Part shown: one piece after another, positions 3,881 to 57,246 of the stretch
How the letters are laid out: each line of letters begins with the position of its first letter
Position numbering within the stretch: the stretch's first letter is position 1
Assembly (NCBI RefSeq): GCF_009858175.1
Contig: NZ_CP047393.1
Location: 1,240,001-1,304,000 of the forward strand
Direction: 5' to 3'
DNA length: 64,000 nucleotides
DNA from: Pontibacillus sp. HMF3514
Lineage (GTDB): Bacteria; Bacillota; Bacilli; Bacillales; BH030062
Notes under the pieces: model-generated
What the model saw: the letters and a program-made list of their open reading frames with translations, nothing else
Databases searched by the model: none
Told to the model about the DNA's origin: nothing
Program-made: the position numbers and the translations under genes

Positions 3881-3994
3881 TTATGTGTGCGAAAAAATCA
3901 GAAAAAAGTAAATTCACACACATTTTTTATAATCATTGACCGGCAGTTTGATGGTTGTTATAGTTCTCTTTATCAAATAAATAACAGATTCAGC

Positions 3995-4064
3995 ACCTTG
4001 TATAAGTTCAGGAATAGGGCCTGAACGTTTCTACCAGCTACCGAAAATAGCTCGTCTACAAGGG
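3995..4064 (+). promoter_or_regulatory. purine (guanine-type) riboswitch aptamer
   Basis: The layout matches purine riboswitches: P1 arm ACCTTGTA, TATAAG, a P2 hairpin (TTCAGG ... CCTGAA), the hallmark junction GTTTCTACC, a P3 hairpin (AGCTA-CCGAAAA-TAGCT), then GTCTACAAGG closing P1. The pyrimidine at the specificity position in GTCTAC is C, as in guanine/hypoxanthine sensors, rather than U as in adenine sensors. AATAGGG replaces the usual ATATGG. It lies upstream of a hypoxanthine/guanine permease gene, the expected target. Confidence 0.88.
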
Positions 4065-4080
4065 GAAAACGTCTATGTTT

Positions 4081-4123
4081 CTTTCCCTTTGTATAAGCAG
4101 CGGTAGTTTACCGGTGCTTTTTT
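4081..4123 (+). terminator. riboswitch expression platform: antiterminator arm and terminator
   Basis: The bases TTTCCCTTTGTATA (about 4083-4095) can pair with the 3' P1 strand TACAAGGGGAAA (4057-4068). When the ligand holds P1 closed, the following hairpin GCAGCGGTA/TACCGGTGC (4097-4117, one mismatch) with a T6 tract can form. This is the usual OFF-switch logic of transcription-terminating purine riboswitches. Confidence 0.75.
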
Positions 4124-4140
4124 ACATTCTATGAATCTAT

Positions 4141-4335
4141 AAAATTTATGGCTTGTGTATAACTTTTTAATGACAGTGGGGCCACGTCTAGCTCCAGCGC
4201 CCAGCAACGAAGGGACTTCCCTTGCCTCCGTTCGATAAGTCAACATCAAATTGGCAAACAATTTGTGTTTCCTTTATCTCACTACTGGCTCAGTCCAGTC
4301 CCTTCGTTGCTAAACGAGCGCTTACGCTTTTGTTA
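4141..4335. repeat. structured interspersed element, short copy A
   Basis: This ~195-bp element has imperfect inverted ends AGCTCCAGCGCC (4190-4201) and GAGCGCTTACGCT. A long stem pairs CAACGAAGGGA with TCCCTTCGTTG, and an inner hairpin CAAATTG/CAATTTG is present. Shared landmarks with other copies are GATAAGTCAACATC, GTGTTTCCTTTA and GGCTCAGTCCA. About 45 bases to the left (GGCTTGTGTATAACT) are also shared with the copy at 28296. It lies in the permease leader, between riboswitch and ribosome site. Confidence 0.85.
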
Positions 4336-4357
4336 TATGCATCTAGGAGGGGACATC

Positions 4358-28231: not shown

Positions 28232-28278
28232 AAAAAGCATGTGGTTTTAGAAATAAATCTAAGACCACATGCTTTTTT
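28232..28278 (+). terminator. terminator of ppaC
   Basis: A 15-bp stem, AAAAAGCATGTGGTTTTAGA with its mirror TCTAAGACCACATGCTTTTT, starts 9 bases after the stop. Confidence 0.85.
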
Positions 28279-28295
28279 ATAAGTCCAGGAATTTA

Positions 28296-28676
28296 TAAAA
28301 TTAGTGGCTTGTGTATAACTCTTTAATGAGCGTGGGGCCTAGTCCAGCTCCAGCGCCCAGCAACTAGTATGCTTGGGCCCACATGACGTGGGTCAGATCG
28401 ACGTTGTCACAGGACGTGACGGGTTTAGTCGATCATTCTTTCTCCGTAAGATAAGTCAACATCGAATCGCTTTGCTCTTCGTGTTTCCTTTACACGTTTG
28501 TTACATAAAATTTTAACAATGAAGGAACTCGACGTAGTTAAAATTTCTAGGTGAAAGTACCACGGCAACTATGCTTCTGTCTGCGCCTATTGGCTTGCCA
28601 ATCAGCAAGTTTAGTTAATCTTACTGCGGCTCAGTCCAGCATATACGTTGCTACCCGGGCGCTTACGCTTTTGTTC
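28296..28676. repeat. structured interspersed element, long copy B
   Basis: A ~380-bp element with the same ends as the copies at 4.1 and 57.1 kb (AGCTCCAGCGCC; GGCGCTTACGC) plus two inserted blocks. Stems visible: CAACTAGTATGCT/AGCATATACGTTG outside; CCCAC/GTGGG; GTCAC/GTGAC inside GATCGAC/GTCGATC; a perfect AAATTTTAAC/GTTAAAATTT; ATTGGC/GCCAAT. It ends one base before the stop codon of the minus-strand dctB-like gene. A second long copy is at 55259. Confidence 0.85.
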
Positions 28677-55258: not shown

Positions 55259-55605
55259 TGATCATAGGTGTCTAGCTCCAGCGCCCAGCAACTAGTATGC
55301 TTGGGCCCACACGACGTGGGTTAGATCGACGTTGTCACAGGACGTGACGTACTTAGTCGATCATTCTTTCAGTAAGATAAGTCAACATCGAATCACTTCG
55401 TTCTTCGTGTTTCCTTTACACGTTTGTTAAATGAAATTTTAACAATGAAGGAACTCGACGTAGTTAAAATTTCTAGGTGAAAGTACCATGGTAATTATGC
55501 TTCTGTCTGCGCCTATTGGCTTGCCAATCAGCAAGTTTTGTTAATCTTACTGCGGCTCAATCCAGCATATAAGTTGCTAATCGGGCACCTCCGTTTTTCT
55601 TACAT
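55259..55605. repeat. structured interspersed element, long copy C
   Basis: About 94 percent alike by eye to the long copy at 28296, with changes mostly in loops (for example CCCAC-atgac-GTGGG versus CCCAC-acgac-GTGGG) and near the 3' end (GGGCACCTCCGTTTTTCTT). The 45-base left extension seen in other copies is absent. It separates the regulator gene from the ABC operon. Confidence 0.85.
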
Positions 55606-57060: not shown

Positions 57061-57246
57061 TGTAATTAGTGGCTTTAATTTATTTAGTAGAGTGGGCCAC
57101 ATCCAGCTCCAGCGCCCAGCAACGAAGGGAGTTCCCTCGCCTCCGTTCGATAAGTCAACATCAAATTGTTTCACAATTTGTGTTTCCTTTATCTTACTAC
57201 GGGCTCAGTCCACTCCCTTCGTTGCTAAGCAGGCGCTTCCGCTTTA
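57061..57246. repeat. structured interspersed element, short copy D
   Basis: Same short form as the copy at 4141: AGCTCCAGCGCC, CAACGAAGGGA/TCCCTTCGTTG stem, GATAAGTCAACATC, perfect hairpin CAAATTG-TTTCA-CAATTTG, GGCTCAGTCCA and GGCGCTTCCGCT. It lies inside the ABC operon between receptor and first permease genes. Confidence 0.85.

Follow-up and report, generated by a model that had tools for sequence, protein, structure and literature searches.

A dispersed multi-stem repeat of Pontibacillus, built of removable cassettes and placed behind transcription terminators

The window considered here is a stretch of 64,000 nucleotides from Pontibacillus sp. HMF3514, and at positions 28283–28676 it contains a multi-stem non-coding repeat of about 390 nt that is one copy of a dispersed family. 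The question raised by this locus is what such an elaborate fold is kept for, and whether the family is better understood as a set of structured RNAs or as mobile DNA. The parts of the element, together with the other copies in the window, are listed below, where the comparison congener is Pontibacillus marinus BH030004 (genome G002).

28232–28277, plus strand: intrinsic terminator of the upstream plus-strand gene and target of the insertion (inverted repeat I1; also present in the empty P. marinus site)
28283–28672, plus strand: inserted element, edges good to within a few bases; absent at the orthologous P. marinus site, which has 7 other nt there
28286–28345, plus strand: E-type 5' extension, GGAATTTATAAAATTAGTGGCTTGTGTATAAC..
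28352–28373, plus strand: outer left arm, AGCGCCC AGCAACTAGTATGCT (I2, I10; arm covariation)
28378–28444, minus strand: Bacillaceae-1 cassette, RF01690, the Rfam strand being minus (Rfam match; cassette gain and loss)
28446–28452, plus strand: GTAAGAT, 5' strand of the stem around H and M2, with its partner at 28618–28624 (I12; both-sided changes, columns 125/301)
28458–28485, plus strand: H hairpin, followed by TTTCCTTTA (both-sided changes, columns 140/158, 142/156 and 145/153)
28493–28618, plus strand: M2 cassette, 126 nt, also a free-standing 135-nt repeat elsewhere (orthologous gain and loss; length classes)
28638–28663, plus strand: outer right arm, AGCATATACGTTGCT .. GGGCGCT (I2, I10; arm covariation)
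28657–28670, plus strand: right-end hairpin, small and terminator-like, with a T run (consensus match only)
4120–4340, plus strand: minimal copy of E type without a cassette; P. marinus site empty
55259–55605, plus strand: second long copy in the window; insertion common to P. marinus, where exactly M2 is missing
55306–55372, minus strand: Bacillaceae-1 cassette of the second long copy (Rfam match)
57094–57245, plus strand: minimal copy without a cassette; absent from the P. marinus locus

All the hairpins listed by the initial annotation are present in the window element. CCCAC/GTGGG lies at 28378–28382/28388–28392, GATCGAC/GTCGATC (28396–28402/28428–28434) encloses GTCAC/GTGAC (28406–28410/28416–28420), and the AAATTTTAAC/GTTAAAATTT stem is found at 28508–28517/28537–28546, all of them in both long copies of the window. 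The ATTGGC/GCCAAT pairing (28589–28594/28597–28602) is no feature of the family, being broken in most copies when the alignment is read by eye, and an overlapping CTTGC/GCAAG stem (28594–28598/28605–28609) is, by the same reading, kept in most of them. Further stems beyond that list are the outer arms, 28352–28373/28638–28663, and the pair 28446–28452/28618–28624. The minimal copy at 4120–4340 sits between a purine riboswitch terminator and the start of the next gene (window 3978–4352), and would therefore join the leader RNA upon read-through of the switch.

Searches of the HMF3514 genome, with 58 and 59 matches, merge into 58 places, of which 48 parse as complete cores; the ten places outside the core set are six M2-only copies along with L016, L079, L161 and L146_795695. 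Each core runs in the order left arm, slot 1, hairpin H with TTTCCTTTA, slot 2 and a right arm that ends in GCGCTTGCGCTTTT or similar. Slot 1 is occupied by a short junction of the type CCCTCGCC or by a Bacillaceae-1 cassette, which adds 60 nt, and slot 2 holds either nothing or an M2 cassette, which adds 126 nt. Neither cassette is found in 21 of the 48 cores, Bacillaceae-1 only in 7, M2 only in 11 and both in 9, and the core lengths are quantised at about 147, 207, 273 and 333 nt for these four states respectively. The extension in front of the core is of type E in 17, of type N in 21 and missing in 10. A few copies carry other deletions (for instance L029, L022 and L160_3234104), and the 60-nt hairpin-pair unit of Bacillaceae-1 is repeated two or three times within single copies, namely L010 and L030 in HMF3514 and L177, L178, L180 and L181 in P. 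marinus, the tandem call for L178 being made from its length and a partial second match only.

The M2 cassette also leads a life of its own, as a repeat of about 135 nt with the terminator end CTTGCC-AATC-GGCAAG-TTTTCTTTA. Free-standing M2 is found in the HMF3514 genome at L073, L075, L076, L077, L080 and L081, and four of these six copies lie behind a detected terminator. At L076, M2 stands directly behind the terminator end of what appears to be a further M2 copy. Matches to M2 occur in 18 of 41 genomes searched and 15 of 34 genera, many over part of its length only. The idea that M2 is an already known RNA was dropped, as the Rfam search gave no counterpart near a cut-off.

The other cassette is a catalogued one. 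The first three stems named in the initial annotation match Rfam RF01690 (Bacillaceae-1) on the minus strand of the two window copies, with E values of 2.6e-11 and 1.2e-11 and scores of 72 and 73.4 bits against a gathering cut-off of 35. There are 59 RF01690 matches in the HMF3514 genome, 58 over the cut-off, and 40 of the 59 reside in a second repeat family (L033–L071 and L126–L145) of about 500–760 bp, which has ends unlike those of family 1 and no long open reading frame. This second family has two kinds of end, A and B, with one of each wherever both were found, and a 23-base motif of the B end gives 116 matches at up to 3 mismatches where the backward control gives none. Each end has a Bacillaceae-1 slot some 100 nt away from it, and both of these are occupied in L049. 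Twenty members without RF01690 were sampled, and for 19 of them at least one comparison shows the slot to be vacant, usually with 11–14 nt in its place; the flanks of empty and filled slots are up to 98% identical.

Beyond this genome the distribution of RF01690 is patchy, with matches in 33 of 61 genomes and none in the congener G003. In several other genera with few copies, RF01690 is found with rRNA operons or tRNA clusters, inside them or next to them, and in the sense orientation (L091, L094, L095, L102, L103 and L105). With one copy examined per genus, it is next to the start of 16S in L091, between 23S and 5S in L102, beside 5S in L103, and after 5S in L094 and L095. This placement fits an RNA role better than a mobile-DNA view. 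Bacillaceae-1, which appears in a table of PMC2864571, is typed by Rfam as an sRNA gene, and is among the abundant sRNAs identified by homology in an extract of PMC9029176; in an extract of PMC8208703, the previously unannotated matches include 8 Bacillaceae-1 structures of B. subtilis.

In a comparison with P. marinus, whole copies and single cassettes differ between the two species, although a single species for comparison does not allow a gain to be distinguished from a loss at any one site. The orthologous loci are those matchable among the P. marinus stretches compared rather than a random sample. Five HMF3514 copies are absent at their orthologous sites, those at window 28283, 4120 and 57094 together with L147 and L146_793442. 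The host terminator is present in four of these empty sites, where the HMF3514 insert starts within a few bases of the terminator T run, the site of 57094 being less clean. The five sites have no clear target duplication, and TA is seen by eye at many element ends. Elsewhere the insertion is common to both species and differs in a single cassette. The P. marinus counterpart of 55259 is without exactly M2, and that of L020 carries a short junction where HMF3514 has Bacillaceae-1; at L146_795695 it is the HMF3514 copy that has no core, P. marinus retaining two Bacillaceae-1 units and M2. L079 and its counterpart L180 are different element copies behind one terminator, which suggests a favoured landing site. 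The proposal of the initial annotation that the element changes size by modules is thus seen both at orthologous insertions and as quantised lengths.

Element copies have a fixed orientation directly 3' of intrinsic terminators. A co-oriented intrinsic terminator lies directly upstream of 31 of the 48 copies, as against 18 of 600 random 75-mers (p 4e-28), a lenient control drawn from whole loci with coding sequence included; the better contrast is that with the downstream side, where terminators were detected in 1 and 0 of 48 for the two orientations. By type of extension, the upstream terminator was detected for 16 of 17 E copies, 7 of 21 N copies and 8 of 10 without an extension. The second repeat family is likewise near terminators, on both sides (15, 11, 5 and 11 of 40).

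The fold itself has evidently been kept. Folded as a single sequence the window element gives z values of -2.1 (plus) and -2.6 (minus). An alignment was made of 18 of the 23 copies with both cassettes (8 from HMF3514 and 10 from the congener, five with tandem units being left out), and its consensus energy is -84.8 on the plus strand and -92.7 on the minus strand, about twice that of column-shuffled alignments on either strand (means -41.4, sd 4.5, and -43.8, sd 4.6, from 30 shuffles per strand). Both-sided changes are seen in 16 of the 97 predicted pairs. The strongest case for kept pairing is provided by the outer arms. Three of 65 copies, in which fewer than 14 of the 22 positions pair, were dropped, and in the 44 distinct arm pairs supplied by the rest 882 of 968 cells are paired; none of 2000 re-deals of the right arms reached this value, their mean being 815 (sd 7.0, maximum 840).

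The initial annotation had also claimed that loops rather than stems differ between copies, and this holds. Of the 25 differences between the two long window copies, 6 lie in the 152 paired columns and 19 in the remaining 178 (Fisher p 0.023). It had called for a comparison of substitution in stems and loops over all genome copies, and over the 18 the pairwise difference averages 0.081 in stems against 0.159 in unpaired columns (permutation p 0.0002), a result that is favoured by the stems having been derived from the same alignment. Its picture of many conserved stems is borne out by the pairing kept across copies.

Kept pairing does not in itself distinguish RNA from DNA, but the kind of mispairing that is tolerated bears on the matter. 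Selection of one strand as RNA should leave more G-U than A-C among the departures from pairing on that strand. Over the 18 long copies the departures are balanced, with 15 G-U and 14 A-C cells, and so they are in the outer arms (19 and 21); since the two are equal, no strand is favoured. The balance is compatible with RNA but lends it no support, and equal counts could also stem from weak selection or young copies. For RF01690 alone, read on the Rfam strand, 12 G-U stand against 32 A-C (63 unique sequences, non-independent and partly misaligned), which leans opposite to the Rfam strand, and this conflicts with the rRNA-operon copies, which lie on it. Because wobble pairs show no strand preference though the stems are kept by paired changes, the fold of the element may act as DNA.

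It is likely that the element is a non-autonomous mobile repeat of BOX-like build, composed of cassettes, inserted behind terminators and with its fold kept for mobility. What has been observed to this end is its dispersal, its absence from orthologous sites, its single orientation 3' of terminators, the quantised cassettes, the orthologous differences of one cassette and the both-sided changes in stems. A trans-acting enzyme would recognise the folded element, through its outer arms, and insert it behind a hairpin and T run. Further elements that share this target would then nest inside, M2 coming to lie behind the TTTCCTTTA of the H hairpin, and the Bacillaceae-1 cassette would be exchanged in its fixed slot by recombination between copies, where it can also duplicate in tandem. 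Mobility would require the fold and so preserve it, probably in the form of a DNA hairpin or cruciform, with any role in read-through RNA secondary. Against this reading, searches with RVT_1 and Y1 found no mobilising gene for the element in the HMF3514 genome, the empty sites have no clear target duplication, and a terminator was detected upstream of just 7 of the 21 N-type copies. More tentatively, terminators may serve as landing pads to a guild of non-coding Bacillales elements that insert as folded DNA, several of which have terminator-like ends of their own and so stack and nest into composites; Bacillaceae-1 would then be a guild cassette and not a gene, and M2 a further, uncatalogued member.

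The initial annotation held instead that this is a multi-stem RNA of about 350 nt. On such a view the family would consist of transcribed regulatory RNAs whose hairpins bind protein, and in print the Bacillaceae-1 part has been proposed to titrate CsrA through the loops of its reverse complement. The consensus fold far below column shuffles, the terminator-like right end and the sense-strand RF01690 in rRNA operons of other genera all speak for an RNA, and in an extract of PMC4333381 the reverse complement of Bacillaceae-1, with its matches to the CsrA motif, is proposed to bind CsrA, the discoverers having been unsure of the strand. The csrA gene is present in HMF3514 and in 57 of 61 relatives, but three of the four relatives without it have RF01690 (2, 10 and 6 matches, the last genome being 7% contaminated). 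By eye, family-1 cassettes have at least one AGGA loop, whereas just 5 of the 40 family-2 cassettes do. With the GGA loop lost in the other 35, and with RF01690 in csrA-less genomes, a CsrA sponge was rejected as the general role of the cassette, and the idea fits poorly here. Wobble pairs without strand preference and copies that are dispensable at orthologous sites argue against the wider RNA reading, as does the promoter scan, which on element copies did no better than on shuffles; an extended -10-like TGTGTATAAC read by eye in the E-type extension (28286–28345) was not recovered by it. Taken together, regulatory RNA is an unlikely account of the family. A slightly better prospect, though still a doubtful one, is an ordinary MITE of a DDE insertion sequence that inserts anywhere and survives only behind terminators. 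The inverted outer arms, the lack of an open reading frame, the dispersed copies and the TA at many ends (by eye) would suit it, but survival alone fails to explain the one-sided orientation (31 against 1 and 0 of 48), the empty sites have no clear duplication, and a limited search of 20 family-2 loci, L160 and L161 found no insertion sequence with these ends. The longer forms leave no room for a transposase, the family-2 ends being about 470–640 nt apart in 19 of the 20 sampled loci (in L126 the second end was not recovered with that motif), and by eye no transposase was recognised among the open reading frames of L160 and L161. The assertion of the initial annotation that this is not a simple MITE accordingly stands in part: the element is made up of cassettes that occur elsewhere too, but it is MITE-like in being dispersed, non-coding, equipped with inverted arms and absent at orthologous sites, even if its arms are found within the E or N extension and not at the very ends.

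Two further kinds of enzyme have to be weighed as mobilisers. RAYT genes are flanked by their REPs, and a REP/REPIN-like element moved by a resident RAYT-like Y1 transposase would suit the fixed orientation and the lack of clear duplication; HMF3514 has one RAYT-like Y1_Tnp gene and each of 7 congeners has 1 to 4. The HMF3514 gene, however, lies beside a different palindrome (GTGCCTGACCCCC..), and just 2 of the 15 Y1 loci examined (L230 and L233) contain a family-1 copy, which does not flank the gene; those 15 are from 17 found, two much stronger matches (G003 and G005) lying outside the set. With the flanking repeat being another palindrome, RAYT was rejected as mobiliser and this explanation is very unlikely. 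At L229, L230 and L234, RAYT-like Y1 genes are found beside GTGCCTGACCCCC..GGGGGTCAGGCAC palindromes, a REP family unrelated to the element. Group IIC introns insert behind terminators, and a retro-element whose RNA copy is placed there by a reverse transcriptase in the same manner would account for the fixed orientation and for the position immediately after terminator hairpins. There are, though, no RVT_1 matches in HMF3514 or P. marinus, with any at all in only 3 of 8 congeneric genomes, and Rfam gave no match to a group II intron within the element, so that a reverse transcriptase was rejected and this route is the most improbable of those considered. Spread on plasmids or phages was also dropped, there being no blastn match of the element in either collection. 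The non-autonomous mobile repeat, inserted behind terminators and kept folded for mobility, thus remains the preferred reading.

If so, the reading of a catalogued small RNA family changes, as nearly all its copies in the HMF3514 genome are removable cassettes of dispersed repeats, and annotation therefore counts them as RNA genes without evidence. The finding points to an activity that targets transcription terminators, and the orthologous pairs with and without one cassette allow a direct test of what a cassette does to the genes next to it and to mobility. In the open literature, a scope outside which most subscription papers lie and within which ranking could hide one, no tie of Bacillaceae-1 to mobile repeats was found; a text match to the letters of the arms gave no bacterial-repeat paper by title among the matches listed, and a search on Pontibacillus repeats nothing relevant by title. 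As far as the literature searched goes, three things seem new: Bacillaceae-1 as a removable cassette within mobile repeats, M2 as a nested repeat not yet catalogued, and the fixed place of the copies behind terminators.

Several known systems resemble the element in part. REP/REPIN palindromes with RAYT are structured, dispersed and non-autonomous, and the element is likewise, although the RAYT-like gene here adjoins another palindrome. RF01690 itself is matched by the cassettes at 28378–28444 and 55306–55372; in Rfam it is an sRNA gene and here a removable part of two repeat families. The bcr1 repeat of the Bacillus cereus group is also a dispersed folded repeat, for which the title of a work in the reference list of PMC2267715 announces mobile element characteristics, and it is likened to the element by that title alone. 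The closest in build, a likeness by description and not membership, are the BOX elements of Streptococcus pneumoniae and S. suis, which in an extract of PMC3049150 are composite, folded, dispersed and non-coding, with an inner module that is absent, single or in tandem. The element shares this modular plan, in which an inner module may be missing, present once or repeated in tandem, and one inner module of the S. suis BOX is common to two families with different ends (same extract), just as RF01690 is here. Unlike BOX, the present family belongs to another genus and is made of other modules, one of which is a catalogued RNA family whilst the second is also free-standing, and its copies lie directly behind terminators in one orientation.
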